Shown piece after piece: positions 2-6,975 of a stretch of DNA of 6,975 nucleotides. The position numbers and the translations under genes were made by a program. Numbering within the stretch: the stretch's first letter is position 1; every line of letters starts with the position of its first letter. The DNA comes from Deltaproteobacteria bacterium. GTDB taxonomy: Bacteria > UBA10199 > GCA-002796325 > JACPFF01. Under the pieces are notes generated by a model. The model ran no database searches, had not been told where the DNA came from, and worked only from the letters and a program-made list of their open reading frames with translations. Location of the stretch: positions 1 to 6,975 of the forward strand of contig JACPFF010000003.1 in assembly GCA_016183065.1 (NCBI GenBank), in the 5' to 3' direction.

Positions 2-823
2 CACGCCCGGGACCTCGACCCGACGTGGGGCCGCTTCCTCACCCCGGACCCCGTGGTGAGCGATCCCACCGATGCGCAGGCGTATAACCGGTACGCCTAC
101 GCCCGCAACAACCCGTTCCGGTACACCGATCCGACGGGGTATTTTGAAACCGCCGACATGTTTGGGGATCCCGCTTCGGATAAGGACAACGACACCATCG
201 TGGATGATTTTTATGAAGTCGATTACGAAACCGACGCGCGCGCTCCGGTCCCAGCCGACCCCCCGAACCTCGTGGCCAGGACCACTGGGGCGGACGAGGC
301 GGTGCCACCGCCCGCCTGGTATCACGCGGGGACTGTCGAGACGCCGCCCGCGCATCCGCACACGGGGCGCCACGTCGGCATTGTCTATGTGACGGGGCAT
401 CGGTTTGCACACATCGGTCCCTATCACACGGCCATTGAATATACGAATGAGTTGGGGCAAGCTCGGTGGGTGAGTGCGGGACCGCAGGGGGGCAACTTGG
501 TGAGTGGCCAAGGCGGGGCGTTTGGGGTTGGGGTCTATAAGGCCGAACGCGCCACCGATCGCCCCGGCAAGAATGCGACGTTGGGGACGGTGACCCCGCC
601 GGTCGGAGAAGCGCCGGGGGCGTATTTTGAGCGCATTCGCGCCGCCGATGCGGCGTATTGTGATTGTATTGGATATCCGTTGGATGGAGGATATTTCAGT
701 GGGGCACAGAACTCGAATAGTTATACACGGGGGTTGATCGAAGGTACCGGGGGGACGACCGCCGTAGACTTTGGCGAATATACGAGTGGCAATAATCCTG
801 TGTCTGACTGGTATTTCAAATAA
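2..823 (+). CDS. Rhs protein C-terminus with variable toxin-like tail (5' partial)
   Basis: The frame is open from the window edge, so the start lies upstream; the internal GTG at 53 is not a credible start. Visible residues 1-47 are the end of the Rhs-associated core: the GRFLTPDP motif, then YNRYAYARNNP and YTDPTGY. This conserved segment marks where the core is cleaved or ends and the variable toxin tail begins. The tail (residues ~48-273) drops in GC content, as is usual for swapped Rhs tips. It contains GPYHTAIEY (His142), a GPQGGNLV segment near 160-167, two cysteines (220, 222) and QNSNSYTRGL (237-245). I recall this His...GPxGG...NSNS[YF] pattern in other Rhs tails. Its order resembles permuted papain-like folds in which His precedes an N-C-N motif, but Ser238 occupies the Cys position, so catalysis is uncertain. 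The probable role is an intercellular antagonism effector. The Rhs assignment is secure; the toxin activity is unproven. Confidence 0.88.
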   Translation, partial: HARDLDPTWGRFLTPDPVVSDPTDAQAYNRYAYARNNPFRYTDPTGYFETADMFGDPASDKDNDTIVDDFYEVDYETDARAPVPADPPNLVARTTGADEAVPPPAWYHAGTVETPPAHPHTGRHVGIVYVTGHRFAHIGPYHTAIEYTNELGQARWVSAGPQGGNLVSGQGGAFGVGVYKAERATDRPGKNATLGTVTPPVGEAPGAYFERIRAADAAYCDCIGYPLDGGYFSGAQNSNSYTRGLIEGTGGTTAVDFGEYTSGNNPVSDWYFK

Positions 824-853: not shown

Positions 854-1438
854 ATGTATAGTCAGCTATTTGTTCAGCGATACATATGGTATGGCTTCGG
901 GATAGGCCTTGGATATGTCTTAGCGATCCCGTTAACCATCGGCAGCGGAGCACTACTTTCCACTGTTGGCGCGGCGCTTCCACCTGTAGCAATTCTTTTG
1001 CCGGGAGTATGGTTTCATAGGTATGGAGTGAGCCTGGAACTCCTGGTGGGAGTATTGCTGCACAGCAGTCTTTTTCTGCTCTTCAATGTCTATCTCTTTC
1101 GCCGATATCGTCGTCACCGAGTGTTTTCCTCATGGCGGGCCTGTGCCCCGACCCTGTGGGGGCTGGCACTCGTGTTGGGGCTCGATGTCGCGTATTGGGC
1201 GTTTGCGCTGACCTCGTCCCCTGTGGGGATCGCGCATCAAGGGATGACATATCTCATTGTGTATGGTGCGCTGAACGTCTTAGTCTTTCTTGGGGCCACC
1301 GGGGTACTCTGGGGTCTGGTGCGGCAGGCACGACGACAGCAGACCACCATTGCCCCGCTGTCACTGTTGACCCTCCACTTTTGTATTTATCTTGCCGGGC
1401 TGACAATCTTGTTTCCATACATTGGAGAACTGCCGTAG
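854..1438 (+). CDS. Polytopic membrane protein, candidate immunity protein of the Rhs tail
   Basis: This is a 194-residue integral membrane protein. Hydrophobic segments lie at about 11-52 (one or two helices), 61-83, 100-119, 130-156 and 167-189, so roughly five or six helices. A basic loop, RRYRRHR (83-89), follows the second major segment and probably faces the cytoplasm. The ATG start is supported by AAGGAGG at 843-849, four bases upstream. The gene begins 30 bp after the rhs stop on the same strand, the usual slot for the cognate immunity gene of an Rhs toxin tip. I recognise no family. Most immunity proteins against cytoplasmic toxins are soluble, so a membrane immunity protein would suggest a toxin acting at or across the membrane; alternatively this is an unrelated cargo gene. 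The coding call is strong; the role is inferred from position only. Confidence 0.72.
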   Translation: MYSQLFVQRYIWYGFGIGLGYVLAIPLTIGSGALLSTVGAALPPVAILLPGVWFHRYGVSLELLVGVLLHSSLFLLFNVYLFRRYRRHRVFSSWRACAPTLWGLALVLGLDVAYWAFALTSSPVGIAHQGMTYLIVYGALNVLVFLGATGVLWGLVRQARRQQTTIAPLSLLTLHFCIYLAGLTILFPYIGELP

Positions 1439-1629: not shown

Positions 1630-2283
1630 GTGGCCCTGGCGGCGAACCCCCTCGACAATGCCCTGATTGCAGCGATCGACACCCTGGAGGCCACGACCCG
1701 CGTCACGCTGACGGAGCCGCAGACGGGGCGGACGGTGGCGGTGTTTGAAACACCGGCGGCGTCGGGGGCCCGTGCGCTGGGCCGGCTGCTGGGGCCGATC
1801 GCCGACCTCGCGCGGGGCTTGGATTACCAGACGGTGGCGTTCCTGGCGGCGACGCGGGGCGATGCGCTCACGGCGGCGGTCTATGAAACTTCCGGGTACG
1901 TCATACCCTGTGCAACGTCCTGATCTGACTTGGGGATTCAGGCGTGCCTGGGCAAAATGCGCCTCCCCGCGGGGGACACCGGGGTCCCGTGGCTGACCAC
2001 CGACGATCCGACGCCGCTCGTCTACCTCTACCCCGATCCGCTCAGGTCGACGTGGCTCGTGACGGAGGGGAAAGCGAGCGCCGTGCACGCGGGGATCCGC
2101 TACACGAAGGGCCAAGTCCTCCAACGCTACGCCTACGGCCCCTTCGGCGCGGCCACCTTCCAGCTCAATCCCGACCTTGGGGCGCCGACCCCCGCCCACG
2201 CGGCGCTCCTCACCACGCCGTCGTACACCGGTCACCGGGCGCTTCCGGGCGTGGGCCTCCTGGATGCCCACGCCCGGGACCTC
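1630..2283 (+). pseudogene. Broken second rhs core fragment
   Basis: One plus-strand frame runs from the IS630 junction with an in-frame TGA at 1921-1923. The part after the stop is recognisable Rhs core: LVYLYPDPLRSTWLVTEG (the Y.Y.D.lGS motif), then LQRYAYGPFG, then YTGHRALPGVGLLDAHARDL. The intact gene at the window start continues from the same point (HARDLDPTWGRFL). Residues encoded by 1630-1920 are low-complexity, Ala/Thr/Arg-rich and not clearly Rhs; they may come from a more N-terminal part of an rhs gene. Identity to the window start covers at least 16 bases (2268-2283 against 1-16) and then ends abruptly. There is no start codon with a ribosome-binding site, and no toxin tail follows. 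It is best read as a displaced or deleted rhs copy truncated by rearrangement. High GC produces long spurious antisense frames here. Confidence 0.72.
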
Positions 2284-2327
2284 AGCGACAACTGGGGCTG
2301 GGATTATATCGAACAGAGCTACCGACA

Positions 2328-2353
2328 GCGCTTGCTGCTTACGCTGCAAGCGC
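2328..2353 (-). terminator. Stem-loop across the histidine kinase stop codon
   Basis: GCGCTTGC (2328-2335) and GCAAGCGC (2346-2353) form a perfect 8-bp stem with a 10-base loop that contains the TAA stop of the kinase gene. It sits at the end of the four-gene minus-strand operon. No T-run follows on the minus strand, so it is not a canonical intrinsic terminator; it could stabilise the mRNA 3' end or simply be coding sequence. Function uncertain. Confidence 0.25.
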
Positions 2354-3460
2354 GTGGGGGAATGTGAGGCGAAAAATGGTCCCGTGATGCGGGGAAGAGT
2401 CACAGGTGAGGGTGCCACCGCGGGCGGTGACTACTTCACGGACGACCTGCATGCCGATGCCGTGGCCGTCGTCCTTGCCGGCAGTGTAACCGCCCTGTAG
2501 GACACGAGGTATGACCTCAGCGGGAATCCCTGGGCCACTGTCGGCTACTTCGAGGATAATTTGATCTTGACGGACATAGGAACAGAGTCGCAGCTGGCGT
2601 AACCGTTGGGGCCCCATCTTTTGCATTGCCTCTAGCGCGTTTTTCATAACATTCCCCAAAGCACGTTGGAGGCCGATTCGGTCCCCTGCAACGCACGCAT
2701 TGCTCTCATGCGTGGAGAGAAACTCGACTCCCACCCCCAAGGGTTGGGTTTGAAACTCACGGACGAGTTCATTGCAAAGAGTGTCGAGCGAAAACCAAGT
2801 ACATGGTTCTTTCGCGGGCACTTCGTCTTGCAGCTCGAGAAGGGTCTCCGCGATATTCTGCAACCGTCCACAGCCGAGACCAAGGCCTTCGATGACCTGA
2901 TTGATACTGTCGGGATCGCGGTGATCGCGCAGAAACGCGGCGACTGTCTGAATCGTGGTCAGCGGGGAGCGGAGATCATGTGCCACCTGCCGTGCCAATC
3001 GCCCAAGGGCGGCCTGAGCCGTGGCTGCGGCGAGAGCCTTGGTTTGTGTCCGCACAGTGGACAAAAGCTGATTCATACATCGCGCGAGTACACCGACTTC
3101 ATCCTCACGTTGCGCCAAGGATTCAGAGATTTGCAACGTTTCCGTTTGTGTCACCAACGCGGCCTCGGCCACAAAACGCCGCAGCGGATCGCTCAAGAGA
3201 TGCGCAACTGCGACAACAGTGACGGCCACCGCAACAATAATAATGCATGCAATGAGCACAAAAGCCGTCGCCTGTGCTGTCAACAGCGCGGTCACCGGTT
3301 GTCCCAACGTATCCAGGGCCTGTAATTGTTGTCGTAAGAAGAGAAAGCTGAGAGAAAAGGTAACGAGAAGAACGAAGCCGAGGATGCATGGCAAGGCGAT
3401 CAGCAGCTTGTTCCGAATCGATCGCTGGAAGAAACGCCAGCTCCGCATTACGAATGACAT
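2339..3460 (-). CDS. Sensor histidine kinase (HAMP, HisKA, HATPase)
   Basis: A 373-residue membrane kinase that should autophosphorylate on His and pass phosphate to a response regulator not present here. Numbered from the ATG at 3460: membrane segments at ~19-42 and ~64-88 enclose a short loop of about 21 residues. A HAMP-like linker (~89-137) precedes the H-box HDLRSPL with His161. The N-box is NVMKNALEAM (Asn270, Asn274), G1 is VADSGPGIP (Asp307, Gly309, Gly311) and G2 is GHGIG (332-336). All residues needed for ATP binding and autophosphorylation are present. The start is fixed by GGAGG at 3465-3469, four bases upstream. A longer frame to 3574 would overlap the exporter by about 100 bp and is unlikely. 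The gene begins 13 bp after the exporter stop, so it is probably co-transcribed. With so small an outside loop it may sense within the membrane or through a partner such as the exporter; this is inference. Confidence 0.92.
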   Translation of the reverse strand: MSFVMRSWRFFQRSIRNKLLIALPCILGFVLLVTFSLSFLFLRQQLQALDTLGQPVTALLTAQATAFVLIACIIIVAVAVTVVAVAHLLSDPLRRFVAEAALVTQTETLQISESLAQREDEVGVLARCMNQLLSTVRTQTKALAAATAQAALGRLARQVAHDLRSPLTTIQTVAAFLRDHRDPDSINQVIEGLGLGCGRLQNIAETLLELQDEVPAKEPCTWFSLDTLCNELVREFQTQPLGVGVEFLSTHESNACVAGDRIGLQRALGNVMKNALEAMQKMGPQRLRQLRLCSYVRQDQIILEVADSGPGIPAEVIPRVLQGGYTAGKDDGHGIGMQVVREVVTARGGTLTCDSSPHHGTIFRLTFPHALAA

Positions 3461-3464
3461 ACAG

Positions 3465-3469
3465 CCTCC
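3465..3469 (-). promoter_or_regulatory. Ribosome-binding site deciding the kinase start
   Basis: GGAGG on the minus strand, four bases before the ATG at 3460-3458. It overlaps no other gene and lies in the 13-bp gap after the exporter stop. It supports this start over the in-frame upstream codon at 3574. Confidence 0.75.
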
Positions 3470-3473
3470 GTTT

Positions 3474-4859
3474 CTAATCTGCAGCCTCCGCGAACGTCGA
3501 TGACACAGCCACCATCTGCGGAGAAACGTCTCCCACCTGTTGATGAAAATAGCGACACAGCGCCACATGCACAATGCACGTCAGAATAAGTAAGAACGAC
3601 GCCGGTAACATCCACCCCACCACCGTCGTCTCCCCACTCCATCCACTGGAGGGAAGGGCAAAAATGACAATGGCCACATCGACCAACATCGGACCAATAG
3701 AATTGATTGTGGCCCGTTCTCGCGCATTGATGGTTGGCACTGCAACATTCAGGAGTGTTTCGTAGGCCGGCATCAAAAAACCAAAAGCCACATTGAAACC
3801 GACAAACGCTACCAGAAAGATCATCGGCGTTAACCTGCCAGAGAGCTTAAATGCCCCCAATACGAGAATCGACACAGACATCACGACACAAATGCCGCCA
3901 AACCAATGCCACAGACGCAATGGAGATCCTAGTGTGAATGGATGCATTCGCGCACCAGCCAAAATTCGCAAAAGCAGTCGTGCCCCACCATAGGCGGCCC
4001 CCATACCACCAAAGGTTATCAGATACCAATAGAGGGTCATCTGCCCGATTCCAAAGTTTGATCGCAATGCAATCGGCCATAAAATTTCGACAAGATGAAC
4101 AATCATCATAAACCCAACAAACATGACCGTCATATACCGAACGGGTGGATGTTGAATACACACACGCCATCCAACCACCATGATTTCACGGACCCGTTGA
4201 CGTGCTTCCCGAACAAAAGGGTTTCCATGATGAAACTGCAGTGATTGAGTTTCTGGCATGGTCGCCCCACAATAGATAGCACAGAGGAGTGCCGCCAAAC
4301 TGCCAAGACCGAAGGCAATGAACACAACGCCTGAAAGATAACACCAGACACCAATGCCGGCACCAATGATCTTTGCCGCGAGCGAAGCACTTGCCACCCG
4401 CGCAAGAATAGGACCATGACCACCGTCGATGCCACGTTCATTGACCGAGTCGACAATCCACGCTGTAATAGAGCCCGTATAAAATGAATAGCTCACCGCC
4501 TTCAATAGTGCCGCAGTGGCTGCGATGAATAGGGAAAGACCAAAGGCGGGAATAAAGTAGATCCATGCGCGCAGAAAATAGACAAGGGCTTCAAGAGCAA
4601 AACATAGGACAATGGCCTTTTTGCGCCCCAGATAATCACCCAGCGCACCAGTGGGTATCTCCAAAAACACTGTTGCAAGACTCATGAGCATATAGATACC
4701 AACTGTCATCTTGAGGGCAGTTGGACTGGCTCCAAAATGCTCATAGAGAAAGACGTGGTACGTCACCTGCATCAAGCCACAGGCAAGCCCATACACTGAC
4801 TTCAGAAGGCGTGCGCTACGCCATACATCGTGAATTGCGGGCGGAATGGTAGTGATCAT
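3474..4859 (-). CDS. MFS transporter, probable exporter
   Basis: A 461-residue inner-membrane protein with about twelve hydrophobic segments. Residues 68-80 (EIPTGALGDYLGRK) contain MFS motif A, G-x-L-x-D-x-x-G-R-K, in the loop between helices 2 and 3; the preceding EIPTG is common in drug/proton antiporter-like and peptide-exporting MFS proteins. A hydrophilic central loop (~210-235) separates the two halves, and the end is a short cytoplasmic-type tail. I choose the ATG at 4859-4857 because it overlaps the stop of the small upstream gene as ATGA, giving translational coupling. A GTG at 4907 in the same frame has no ribosome-binding site. The gene lies between the small peptide gene and the kinase. 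The inferred job is export of whatever the radical SAM enzyme and peptide gene make, or self-resistance. The substrate cannot be read from sequence. Confidence 0.9.
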   Translation of the reverse strand: MITTIPPAIHDVWRSARLLKSVYGLACGLMQVTYHVFLYEHFGASPTALKMTVGIYMLMSLATVFLEIPTGALGDYLGRKKAIVLCFALEALVYFLRAWIYFIPAFGLSLFIAATAALLKAVSYSFYTGSITAWIVDSVNERGIDGGHGPILARVASASLAAKIIGAGIGVWCYLSGVVFIAFGLGSLAALLCAIYCGATMPETQSLQFHHGNPFVREARQRVREIMVVGWRVCIQHPPVRYMTVMFVGFMMIVHLVEILWPIALRSNFGIGQMTLYWYLITFGGMGAAYGGARLLLRILAGARMHPFTLGSPLRLWHWFGGICVVMSVSILVLGAFKLSGRLTPMIFLVAFVGFNVAFGFLMPAYETLLNVAVPTINARERATINSIGPMLVDVAIVIFALPSSGWSGETTVVGWMLPASFLLILTCIVHVALCRYFHQQVGDVSPQMVAVSSTFAEAAD

Positions 4860-4990
4860 ACCCCCGATTTGCTCGTTGCACTGGCAGACCCCAAATGCAT
4901 CTTCCACCGTGCAATGCGGGCGCGCAGAGCGATGGCCTCAATGGGCAGATGTGCCAACACGCGCAGCATGAGCTGTTTGTATCGTGCCAT
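4856..4990 (-). CDS. Hidden 44-codon basic peptide gene, candidate modified-peptide precursor
   Basis: A short minus-strand frame, ATG at 4990-4988, encodes a 44-residue peptide beginning MARYKQLMLRVLAHLPIEAI and ending in a Gly/Ser/Ala/Thr-rich tail, SASATSKSGV. It has eight Lys/Arg against one Glu, with a hydrophobic heptad-like stretch at 8-22 and an ARWKMHLG segment at 27-34. AGGAAG at 4998-5003 lies seven bases before the ATG; another ATG at 4996 is possible but too close to this site. The first 53 bases overlap the radical SAM 3' end in another frame. The TGA stop (4858-4856) overlaps the exporter ATG as ATGA. The gene therefore fills exactly the space between enzyme and exporter and appears translationally coupled to both. 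In ribosomally made peptide systems a precursor commonly sits beside its radical SAM maturase and exporter. No known precursor family is recognised; it could instead be a small regulatory or membrane-bound accessory peptide. Confidence 0.5.
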   Translation of the reverse strand: MARYKQLMLRVLAHLPIEAIALRARIARWKMHLGSASATSKSGV

Positions 4991-6107
4991 ATACATTCTT
5001 CCTTTCATGGAGAGAGTACGACGCCACTTGACGTATGCTCTTAATCCATTGTTGCCAGTACCAACACGCCGTATCTGGACCGAAAAAATGCCCGTGTATG
5101 GCAAAGCTGGCATTCCGATCGCCACGACAGGCTACAAAATGGGAACAGGTCCCACATCCATCAATCTTGTTCTCACGCAGTTGCTGCATCAGGGGATGAC
5201 GCAAGAAGAGCTCCGCCATGTCCGTCTGTAGCACATTCCCCAGGACCGTTGGCGTGCGGCTCGTGACTTTGAATCCACCCTGATAGTCGATCACAAACGA
5301 GCCAAATCCGGTATTATCGGGGGTCCCGAGCTCGGGTTCGATCAAATGCCACAAGGGGCCCGCAGTATTGGTGGAGACATTGTAGCGCTGCGCAGCGGCA
5401 AAGATCGCCGTGTATGCCTGGTGCAACGCCGCACCCACCAAGGGCCGGTCGACACCAGTTGCCGTCAGCTGCTCCGCATGCCCCTCCAGTACCAATCGAA
5501 CAAAATCCATCGTCTCAGCGTGATGCGCACGCGCCACATGGAAAAAGTCGTCGACCCATGGCACAGATCGTTCACTCAAGACCGCCTGAAAATGGTACGG
5601 CACCGCAGCGTGCTGCAAGTATGCACACCCGGCCATTGTCTTAGCAAAGGATCCCGCTCCCCGAATCGCATCGTGCCGTGCGGCATCAGGGCCATCGACA
5701 CTGATCTGCACGAAGACGGCTAGATCACACAACATGCGCGCCACCCGTTCCGTAATTATGGTCCCATTACTTTGCACACTCAGATCAGCCGTTGGGAACC
5801 TCCGCCGTAGCTCCCGCAACAAGGGCTCGACAAATGGTGCCAAGAGCGGCTCCCCACCACACAACGTGATTTTCGGCACCATATGCAGTCGCTGCAACAA
5901 CTGCTCATATTGAGCAACCACTATCAGCCACTGAGCATAGGTAAGCGCTCCCACATTGTGATGGTGAGGCAAGTAACAATGATCACACCGTAAATTGCAG
6001 GCATTGGTAATATCGAACTGGACACTCAACAATGGCGGCTGCGCATCCACGTGGGGCCATACCCACTCACACACCCAGTCCACCGTTTTCCACAACCAGC
6101 GCACCAT
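4938..6107 (-). CDS. Radical SAM protein with single auxiliary-cluster (twitch/SPASM-like) region
   Basis: A 389-residue cytoplasmic iron-sulfur enzyme. The hallmark CNLRCDHC (Cys37, Cys41, Cys44) should bind the [4Fe-4S] cluster that cleaves S-adenosylmethionine. GGEP (84-87) is the SAM amino-group motif, SNGT (113-116) and ISVDGP (135-140) are typical barrel strands, and the barrel spans about 25-245. Near the C-terminus, GCGTCSHFVACRG supplies Cys318, Cys321 and Cys327, with Cys348 later, preceded by VLGNVL, a phrase common in SPASM proteins. The usual first SPASM Cys (before the LGN) and the CX3C cysteine are missing, so only one auxiliary cluster is likely. Enzymes of this build often modify peptides. 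There is no PqqD-like leader-binding domain. The Trp-rich N-terminus (residues 1-17) is unusual. The ATG at 6107 has AAGGGG eight bases upstream. It is the first gene of the operon. The family is certain; the substrate is unknown. Confidence 0.93.
   Translation of the reverse strand: MVRWLWKTVDWVCEWVWPHVDAQPPLLSVQFDITNACNLRCDHCYLPHHHNVGALTYAQWLIVVAQYEQLLQRLHMVPKITLCGGEPLLAPFVEPLLRELRRRFPTADLSVQSNGTIITERVARMLCDLAVFVQISVDGPDAARHDAIRGAGSFAKTMAGCAYLQHAAVPYHFQAVLSERSVPWVDDFFHVARAHHAETMDFVRLVLEGHAEQLTATGVDRPLVGAALHQAYTAIFAAAQRYNVSTNTAGPLWHLIEPELGTPDNTGFGSFVIDYQGGFKVTSRTPTVLGNVLQTDMAELFLRHPLMQQLRENKIDGCGTCSHFVACRGDRNASFAIHGHFFGPDTACWYWQQWIKSIRQVASYSLHERKNVYGTIQTAHAARVGTSAH
4998..5003 (-). promoter_or_regulatory. 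Ribosome-binding site of the 44-codon gene, inside the radical SAM gene
   Basis: AGGAAG on the minus strand, seven bases upstream of the ATG at 4990. It lies within the radical SAM coding region, as expected for an overlapping downstream gene. Its spacing favours Met at 4990 over Met at 4996 and 5008. Confidence 0.45.
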
Positions 6108-6124
6108 CCCGCATTCCCCTTGTC

Positions 6125-6164
6125 ACACGCCAACATGACGCTATGCGTCGACCCTTTGGCGTGT
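6125..6164. repeat. Nested inverted repeat upstream of the radical SAM operon
   Basis: The outer arms ACACGCCAA (6125-6133) and TTGGCGTGT (6156-6164) are perfect 9-bp complements. Inside them, GACGC-TAT-GCGTC (6137-6149) is a second perfect 5-bp inverted repeat with nearly the same centre. It lies 18-57 bp before the radical SAM start and overlaps the proposed promoter. It could be an operator for a dimeric regulator or an RNA stem in the 5' leader; the sequence alone does not decide. Confidence 0.6.
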
Positions 6165-6167
6165 CAA
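6140..6167 (-). promoter_or_regulatory. Putative sigma-70-type promoter for the operon
   Basis: On the minus strand TTGACA (6167-6162) is a perfect -35 box. With a 16-bp spacer the -10 candidate is CATAGC (6145-6140), which keeps only three of six consensus bases including the A and T at positions 2 and 3. Transcription would start near 6133, giving a leader of about 26 bases to the ATG at 6107. The -35 box sits inside the right arm of the nested inverted repeat and the -10 inside the inner one, so binding there would compete with RNA polymerase. A weak -10 would fit a regulated promoter. Confidence 0.35.
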
Positions 6168-6254: not shown

Positions 6255-6554
6255 TCAATAGCCCAAGCAACTCAACGGATGAATCGCCCACAGCTTGAGA
6301 CACTCCGCAAAATACGGCCCGATGGGCGGCGAAAGATTCTGAATGGTGCAATTGGTGGATTTCACGCATCCAGATTTGTAGGCTCCGTAATTATCCTTGA
6401 TTTCCTGATAGCTCACCCCACCGGAATACACCACGCCGGGCACGGCTTGAAAGAGACCGCCATTATTAAGCTGTTTGAGGACACTGGTTTTCGTGACAAA
6501 CTTCGTACTGGTATAGGCGATTTTCCATTCCCCGTTGGGGCACCAAAACGGAAC
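6255..6554 (-). pseudogene. Unidentified 99-codon open frame, probably a gene fragment
   Basis: On the minus strand a frame is open from just after a TAA (6557-6555) to a TGA at 6257-6255. It reads like real protein: PNGEWKIAYTSTKFV near the start, GGVSYQEIKDNYGAYKSG in the middle, and five cysteines overall with four in the last 40 residues (at 63, 69, 85 and 96). It has no ATG; the first GTG (6443) lacks a ribosome-binding site. It overlaps the end of the recombinase frame (6466-6554) in another phase. The best reading is the 3' end of an unknown gene joined to recombinase sequence by rearrangement. Because it precedes the radical SAM operon on the same strand and is Cys-rich at its end, a peptide-substrate role cannot be excluded but has little support. 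I recognise no family. Confidence 0.35.
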
Positions 6555-6580
6555 TTAACGGCTTTTCCAAAACCAGAAGG

Positions 6581-6603
6581 TGGGACGCGCGAAGCGCGTC
6601 CCA
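6581..6603. repeat. 10-bp perfect hairpin in the recombinase remnant
   Basis: TGGGACGCGC (6581-6590) and GCGCGTCCCA (6594-6603) are perfectly complementary around a GAA loop. It encodes the WDALRAS part of the recombinase tail on the minus strand. Confidence 0.65.
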
Positions 6604-6644
6604 AGGATTCCCGCCGAATTCCCCCAACGAATTCAGAATTTTTG

Positions 6645-6658
6645 GCGCGCTTGCGCGC
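6645..6658. repeat. GCGCGC-TT-GCGCGC hairpin
   Basis: Six-bp self-complementary arms separated by two bases. It is the second of four stem-loops within about 150 bp. A two-base loop is too tight unless a pair opens, so physical folding is less certain than for the neighbours. Confidence 0.4.
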
Positions 6659-6679
6659 ACTGTTTTTTCGCCAAGAAAC

Positions 6680-6692
6680 AGGTGCGAGCCAA
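6680..6692. repeat. 13-bp direct repeat, copy 1 (copy 2 at 6784-6796)
   Basis: AGGTGCGAGCCAA occurs at 6680-6692 and again at 6784-6796, 104 bp apart. The two copies fall in different reading phases of the recombinase (FGSHLF versus WLAPF), so protein constraint does not explain the match. Confidence 0.55.
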
Positions 6693-6705
6693 AGATTTCT
6701 TTGGC
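6688..6705. repeat. 7-bp hairpin in the recombinase remnant
   Basis: GCCAAAG (6688-6694) pairs with CTTTGGC (6699-6705) across an ATTT loop. It abuts the next hairpin with one base between them. Confidence 0.5.
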
Positions 6706-6706
6706 A

Positions 6707-6731
6707 CAGACCTTTTTAGCAAAAAGGTCTG
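6707..6731. repeat. 11-bp perfect hairpin, terminator-like
   Basis: CAGACCTTTTT (6707-6717) and AAAAAGGTCTG (6721-6731) form a perfect 11-bp stem with an AGC loop. The short GC-containing base and A/T-rich top do not match an intrinsic terminator, where the T-run follows the stem. It lies inside the recombinase reading frame. Confidence 0.65.
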
Positions 6732-6880
6732 AATCAGAAGCAATTTTGTCCAAGGATTGAGCGTCTTTTAGCCAGTTTTGGAAAGGTGCGAGCCAATCAT
6801 TCTGCTTGTGTGAAAGAGTATTCATTTCTTCTTCGAGCGACTTCTTGGTAGCGTAAGCTTCCCCATTACGTAGACAGTTC

Positions 6881-6975
6881 TCAAGTAGAATGTTGTGTCT
6901 CCAATGCCCGTCGATACACCGTCGGGGGCATGCCGCCCAGCGCCTCATGCGGGCGGTCTTCGTTGTAGCGATACA
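6881..6975 (-). mobile_element. IS3-family transposase OrfB, C-terminal 30 codons (5' partial)
   Basis: On the minus strand the frame entering from the right edge reads YRYNEDRPHEALGGMPPTVY and then RRALETQHST before a TGA at 6883-6881. YN..RPH.ALG..(T)P..Y is the conserved end of the IS3-family DDE transposase (integrase core, OrfB). Most of the gene, including its catalytic residues, lies outside the window, so its integrity cannot be judged. The recombinase remnant begins within about ten bases of the stop, leaving little room for a full terminal inverted repeat; none was recognised. Either the repeat extends into the apparent recombinase frame or the element end is deleted. Confidence 0.85.

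Follow-up and report, generated by a model that had tools for sequence, protein, structure and literature searches.

What a radical S-adenosylmethionine (SAM) enzyme, a peptide of 44 amino acids, a major facilitator superfamily (MFS) protein and a histidine kinase do together is the question raised by four tightly packed genes on the minus strand of a short metagenomic contig. The window analyzed here is the whole stretch of DNA, 6,975 bp in length, and constitutes the entire contig C11 of the metagenome-assembled genome G000 (2.0 Mb, 30 contigs, 89% complete), with no wider context in G000. The original prediction described a compact operon that could produce and sense a modified peptide. All four genes are present as described, but the outer end given for the operon, position 6167, lies approximately 45 to 60 bp too far upstream of the start of the radical SAM gene, whose open frame is only about 394 codons long. 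The reading favored here, to which we give an even chance of being correct, is that the operon is a self-inducing signaling system based on a modified peptide.

The peptide gene has a clear ribosome-binding site (AAAGGAAG) and its start overlaps the end of the radical SAM gene by 53 bp. The peptide stop and the MFS start have the sequence ATGA in common, and the kinase gene, with GGAGG upstream, starts 13 bp past the end of the MFS gene. A search for the gene order in other genomes, proposed with the original prediction, found the succession of radical SAM, peptide, MFS and kinase genes again in contig C75 of G088, a genome of another phylum, where the MFS protein is 35% identical to that of the window (E 4e-110) and the kinase approximately 25% identical (E 1e-29). 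Since the same order recurs in another phylum, it is not due to chance.

The genomes searched were 46 of the window's class, which alone represents its phylum among the genomes compared, with G088 and G233 as the only members of another phylum among the genomes compared, and a second, overlapping set of 386 genomes centered on G233. Members of the radical SAM family turned up at seven loci, spread over five genomes. Close homologues of the window enzyme were found only in G001 (58% identity), G024 (53%), G088 (two copies, G088a and G088b) and G233 (two copies), the enzyme being present in 3 of the 46 genomes of the window's class, and the set centered on G233 yielded only distant further radical SAM proteins. 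In the radical SAM tree, the window, G001, G024, G088a and G088b group together (99/99), with the G233 pair adjoining.

Surroundings are assembled at six of the loci (Table 1). A small peptide gene is present at all six, in varying positions within the operon, and a kinase gene at five; the contig of G001 ends before a kinase could appear. This constancy is in keeping with a production-and-sensing module as first envisaged. Regular occurrence of close radical SAM homologues without the exporter, kinase or small gene had been named in advance as evidence against such a module; the small gene and kinase are kept, but the MFS gene is not constant. Some loci encode a membrane-anchored solute-binding protein (SBP) of the SBP_5 family in place of, or beside, an MFS protein: G233 has SBP_5 and no MFS gene on its contigs, and G001 and G088b have SBPs together with unrelated MFS proteins. 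No ABC permease adjoins the SBPs, which have an N-terminal transmembrane segment where that end is clear.

Table 1. Features of the window operon and gene order at related loci (Aux II, auxiliary cluster II; HK, histidine kinase; rSAM, radical SAM enzyme)
Feature	Positions	Strand	Particulars
Radical SAM/SPASM-like enzyme	4938..6107	-	ATG 6107, TGA 4938; 389 aa; Pfam Radical_SAM 69 bits
CX3CX2C cluster motif codons	5976..5999	-	Residues 37/41/44; invariant in 7/7 family members
C-terminal Cys codons C318-X2-C321-X5-C327...C348	5064..5156	-	SPASM Aux II ligand pattern
Candidate precursor peptide MARYKQLMLRVLAHLPIEAIALRARIARWKMHLGSASATSKSGV	4856..4990	-	ATG 4990, TGA 4856; 44 aa; homologue in G001 at the corresponding position
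Conserved peptide stretch LPIEAIALRARI	4913..4948	-	Alignment of six peptides
MFS protein	3474..4859	-	ATG 4859, TAG 3474; 461 aa; Pfam MFS_1 53 bits
Histidine kinase	2339..3460	-	ATG 3460, TAA 2339; 373 aa; Pfam HATPase_c 72 bits, HisKA 36 bits
Locus G088a (L061)			rSAM - peptide - MFS - HK with receiver - NtrC-type regulator; window order plus regulator
Locus G088b (L060)			NtrC-type gene - other MFS - rSAM - SBP_5 - SBP_5 - peptide - HK
Locus G001 (L032)			rSAM - peptide - SBP_5 (frameshifted) - other MFS - contig end
Loci G233 (L062, L063)			peptide - SBP_5 - rSAM - HK with receiver; arrangement present twice
Locus G024 (L033)			Contig ends within rSAM

The six peptides can be aligned along a basic N terminus, a variably hydrophobic stretch, an LP or IP motif and A-x-A-like residues followed by a leucine, and the A-x-A before the leucine is a possible processing site. 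With leave-one-out hidden Markov models, the peptides of the window (E 1e-4), G001 (7e-5), G088a (3e-5) and G088b (5e-8) were each the best open reading frame (ORF) of their own locus, and the window peptide as the lone query had its best match in G001, at the correct place (E 0.008). The G233 peptides were included on account of where they lie, their shape and their conservation from one copy to the other. The peptide profile had no match beyond these loci in the five genomes (E-values of the members themselves are circular). A precursor gene with a conserved leader beside a maturase gene, the arrangement of a ribosomally synthesized and post-translationally modified peptide (RiPP), is found in the core clade and, by position and shape only, in G233; the peptide is the presumed substrate of the radical SAM enzyme. 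The leaders of the G088b and G233 peptides resemble signal peptides. A conserved Cys/Ser core serving as a thioether site was considered and dropped, as the cysteines of the G001 tail are not common to the other peptides. Possible processing proteases were seen elsewhere: a large subtilase (S8) and FG-GAP lipoproteins beside MFS-kinase pairs (L116 4070-7051, L118 2518-4893), and an S41 peptidase gene before the G024 radical SAM gene (L033 7812-9647).

The two G233 loci are similar outside the region of the peptide tail and the SBP. The radical SAM enzymes are 83% identical (synonymous divergence, dS, 0.60), the kinases are 86% identical (dS 0.41) with similar periplasmic loops, and the dS of the peptide leader is 0.11. 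From peptide codon 29 through the SBP gene the copies are far apart, with unalike tails, SBPs 60% identical and synonymous sites saturated. At the sequence level this is a pherotype-like mosaic in which tail and SBP diverge jointly and leader, radical SAM enzyme and kinase are conserved, as expected if the tail and the SBP are a matched specificity pair exchanged together. Joint divergence of peptide and receptor, a criterion of quorum sensing, is seen in this one pair.

The enzyme has the CX3CX2C motif in a TIM-barrel core that defines the radical SAM superfamily. Its C-terminal cysteine columns (318/321/327/348) are kept in every family member that reaches them, and their spacing matches that of the Aux II ligands of a SPASM domain, as in anSME; a profile alignment to solved enzymes covers the first three (318/321/327). 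The Aux I positions are lost, and the predicted structure, fair overall (mean predicted local distance difference test score, pLDDT, 72), is poor at the C terminus. By profile and predicted fold, the nearest solved enzymes are SkfB, anSME with peptide, SuiB-SuiA and ChlB-ChlA, which modify peptides; they differ in their precursors and share 13-24% identity with the window enzyme. The named families TIGR04053, AhbD, NirJ, mycofactocin, WgkB and others were ruled out with scores far below their cut-offs. Viperin-type defence (PADLOC pVip) was set aside since the generic core alone matches (residues 29-154), not the full profile. Two scans of viral contigs gave, in one, two weak core matches and, in the other, none; plasmid records gave only distant matches of mycofactocin, NirJ and TIGR04053 type (26-29% identity), and neither a viral nor a plasmid origin was adopted. 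The sole match of a contig scan with a single radical SAM protein (21%) was not used. A different arrangement of radical SAM enzyme and RiPP recognition element is seen at L064 5148-6451 and L067 3036-4357, where a PqqD-like protein (about 100 amino acids) comes after a distant radical SAM relative.

The distant similarity to enzymes of AhbD and NirJ type would fit another product. The radical SAM enzyme could make a small molecule (e.g., by tetrapyrrole-like chemistry) for transport by the MFS protein or binding by the SBP, the small protein being an accessory membrane peptide or an unmodified signal. One G088 SBP resembles NikA (70 bits, far below the cut-off), and the peptide tails share no obvious acceptor residue (Cys, Trp, Lys), both of which agree with this possibility. 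However, every AhbD or NirJ score is less than one quarter of the cut-off, no other pathway gene was found in the neighborhood of any radical SAM locus, and the peptide is always associated with the enzyme and has a tail that diverges jointly with the SBP. Synthesis of a small molecule is therefore considered unlikely.

The MFS protein has its own association with kinases. Of its full-length homologues, which came from seven genomes of the window's class, 13 of 14 directly precede a histidine kinase gene, usually at most 10 nt away or overlapping. Most of these pairs have no radical SAM gene nearby, and no peptide homologue was found beside the pairs that lack one. The window MFS protein is probably part of such an MFS-kinase sensory pair. 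The original prediction regarded it as an exporter; a sensor partner is at least as likely, since MFS-kinase pairs are numerous without the radical SAM gene and the MFS gene is not constant at radical SAM loci. In the MFS tree the window, G088 and G024, all genomes bearing the radical SAM gene, group together (92/93 and 92/96), and in G024 the pair is located on a different contig from the radical SAM gene. The MFS model is good (pLDDT 87.5) and has 12 helices, with MdfA as the nearest solved fold (14-15% identity), but this predicted fold does not distinguish an exporter from a sensor. By hydropathy, the window kinase has two transmembrane helices and a periplasmic loop of approximately 29 amino acids. 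Kinases of this short-loop type also lie behind MFS genes in G014, G007 and G019, and two of these units have a single receiver gene upstream. The idea that the window kinase is degenerate was rejected because short-loop, receiver-free kinases are normal beside this MFS protein. MFS-kinase operons without the radical SAM gene are often preceded by a sigma-54 site and a gene for a secreted protein of about 480-540 amino acids, a beta-helix protein in L115 (L115 5980-7440, L121 9465-11033, L125 8323-9945, L117 2170-2414).

A described pairing of this kind is that of the MFS protein UhpC, which is the sensor for the kinase UhpB (PMC7607045). As in UhpABC, which senses sugar phosphates, the genes of the MFS protein and the histidine kinase are neighbors, and the pair described here may work in a UhpBC-like manner. 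It is not a member of that group, as UhpB has eight transmembrane helices rather than two, UhpC senses glucose-6-phosphate (PMC7607045), and no peptide or radical SAM gene is present there.

A different role for the MFS protein would follow if the product of the operon were a secreted RiPP that acts as an antagonist or as another kind of effector; the MFS protein would then export the product and/or protect the producer, and the kinase would merely control production. A radical SAM enzyme of peptide-modifying type would suit such an operon, as would the exporters (MdfA, LmrP, NorA) among the nearest solved folds of the MFS protein. The MFS family, however, is tied to the kinase and not to the radical SAM enzyme, unlike peptide tails go with unlike SBP receptors rather than transporters, and neither a dedicated leader peptidase gene nor an immunity gene was seen. 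We judge this explanation improbable, and nothing was found that favors self-immunity in particular, a role also suggested originally.

The related loci give indications of how such a system could be regulated. Sigma-54 sites (at least 15 of 17 positions against the -24/-12 consensus) are located upstream of the first gene at four of the seven loci, at distances of 77 bp (G001), 96 bp (G024), 38 bp (G088a) and 33 bp (G088b). Ten such sites occur in 244 kb of strand-sequence and approximately 0.026 would be expected in seven upstream stretches of 150 bp (P ~2e-8); the length of 150 bp was picked after the hits were known, but the effect is nonetheless large. RpoN is encoded in all five genomes. 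At G088a and G088b, an NtrC-type regulator gene is found together with those of the peptide and kinase. The G233 loci have no sigma-54 site at the threshold. The window contig ends in repeats, and the NtrC-type regulators encoded elsewhere in G000 are not assignable to the window operon. A perfect 17/17 sigma-54 site (TTGGCACGTGTTTTGCT) at position 130 (-) of L061 lies past the NtrC-type regulator gene and faces off the contig end, where a further target gene may lie.

In the modified-peptide signaling system proposed here, the radical SAM enzyme would modify the 44-residue peptide, which would be processed, perhaps at the A-x-A before LRARI, and leave the cell. The membrane pair of MFS protein and short-loop kinase would detect the peptide, much as the MFS protein UhpC does for the kinase UhpB, and the kinase would signal to an NtrC-type regulator. 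At related loci, a membrane-anchored SBP_5 occupies the receptor position instead, the kinase may carry a receiver domain and the regulator may be encoded within the locus, where it is predicted to act on the sigma-54 promoter of the same operon and thus to cause self-induction. The best reading of the window copy is an MFS-receptor version with its regulator out of view.

Several observations weigh against this proposal. The window kinase has no receiver domain, no regulator gene is present on the window contig, and the window has no convincing sigma-54 site, the best candidate (14/17) being no better than background. The enzyme has Aux II cysteines only, those of Aux I being absent, and matched no named NCBIfam family of radical SAM peptide maturases (best score 99 bits against a cut-off of 395, TIGR04053). 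Export by the Sec pathway is uncertain for the window and G001 peptides because their leaders are charged and weakly hydrophobic, and that of the window is no standard signal peptide. The G233 peptides were missed by the leave-one-out model, and the mosaic of tail and SBP comes from the single paralogous pair in that genome. Finally, the SBP_5 gene of G001 (L032 791-2240, -) is split into two overlapping frames by a frameshift or an assembly error.

The missing regulatory parts raise the possibility that decay or rewiring has made the window copy a remnant, with a radical SAM-peptide pair beside an ordinary, class-typical MFS-kinase sensor in a region rearranged by RHS elements and insertion sequences (IS), and that this copy no longer signals by itself. 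RHS debris begins immediately after the kinase gene, and upstream there are IS remnants. The four genes are, however, intact and tightly packed with ribosome-binding sites and the ATGA overlap, receiver-free short-loop kinases are normal in the MFS-kinase subfamily of G014, G007 and G019, and the window MFS protein groups with that of G088. A remnant is very unlikely.

The flanks of the window contain further features. An RHS-repeat protein (TIGR03696 core) is represented at positions 2-823 (+) by its C-terminal end, which includes a tail of about 230 amino acids, and positions 854-1438 (+) contain a small hydrophobic ORF of 194 amino acids without a family match; the two resemble a toxin/immunity pair. 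An orphan RHS core fragment occupies positions 1930-2367 (+), directly behind the kinase gene. The stretch ccacgcccgggacctc is found at positions 1-16 and again at 2268-2283, which suggests that RHS elements recombined or that the assembly broke at a repeat. At positions 6466-6975 (-), remnants without a Pfam match resemble the end of an IS3-type transposase (HEALGGMPPTVYRR, read by eye) and lie beside another interrupted ORF.

No described system with this architecture was found in the open-access literature with the terms tried, and the arrangement appears to be undescribed. The agr, ComQXP and ComCDE systems of Gram-positive quorum sensing encode a peptide, a membrane kinase and a regulator in one locus, as G088a and G088b do, and their peptide and receptor diverge together, as in the G233 pair. 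In those systems the varying part of the receptor lies within the kinase, whereas here it is a separate SBP_5, and modification is by AgrB (thiolactone) in agr and by ComQ (prenyl) in ComQXP, neither of which is a radical SAM enzyme. The nearest described systems are the streptococcal radical SAM RiPP (RaS-RiPP) operons under Rgg/SHP control, where a radical SAM gene lies beside that of a short precursor peptide and cell density exerts control via peptide signals (PMC13361665). Those systems use a short hydrophobic peptide distinct from the precursor, which is taken up by the cell and then binds to the cytoplasmic regulator Rgg (PMC13361665). The operons described here have one peptide gene each, a membrane kinase and an MFS or SBP_5 protein, to which the relatives add an NtrC-type regulator and sigma-54 promoters.

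Taken more broadly, the loci may represent a class of peptide quorum sensing not described before, found in two small phyla of uncultured bacteria and comprising a radical SAM-modified peptide, an exchangeable SBP_5 or MFS receptor, a kinase and an NtrC-type/sigma-54 loop, with tail and receptor swapped as pherotypes; this generalization is tentative and rather doubtful. Most known cases of peptide signaling via a membrane kinase come from Gram-positive bacteria. The radical SAM-peptide pair is small enough for a direct test in Escherichia coli. If the proposal is true, joining a radical SAM-modified peptide with a receptor of SBP_5 or MFS type and a sigma-54 loop would amount to a new design of peptide pheromone circuit, an orphan radical SAM family would gain a testable substrate, and many MFS-kinase pairs of the window's class would be suggested to be sensors.

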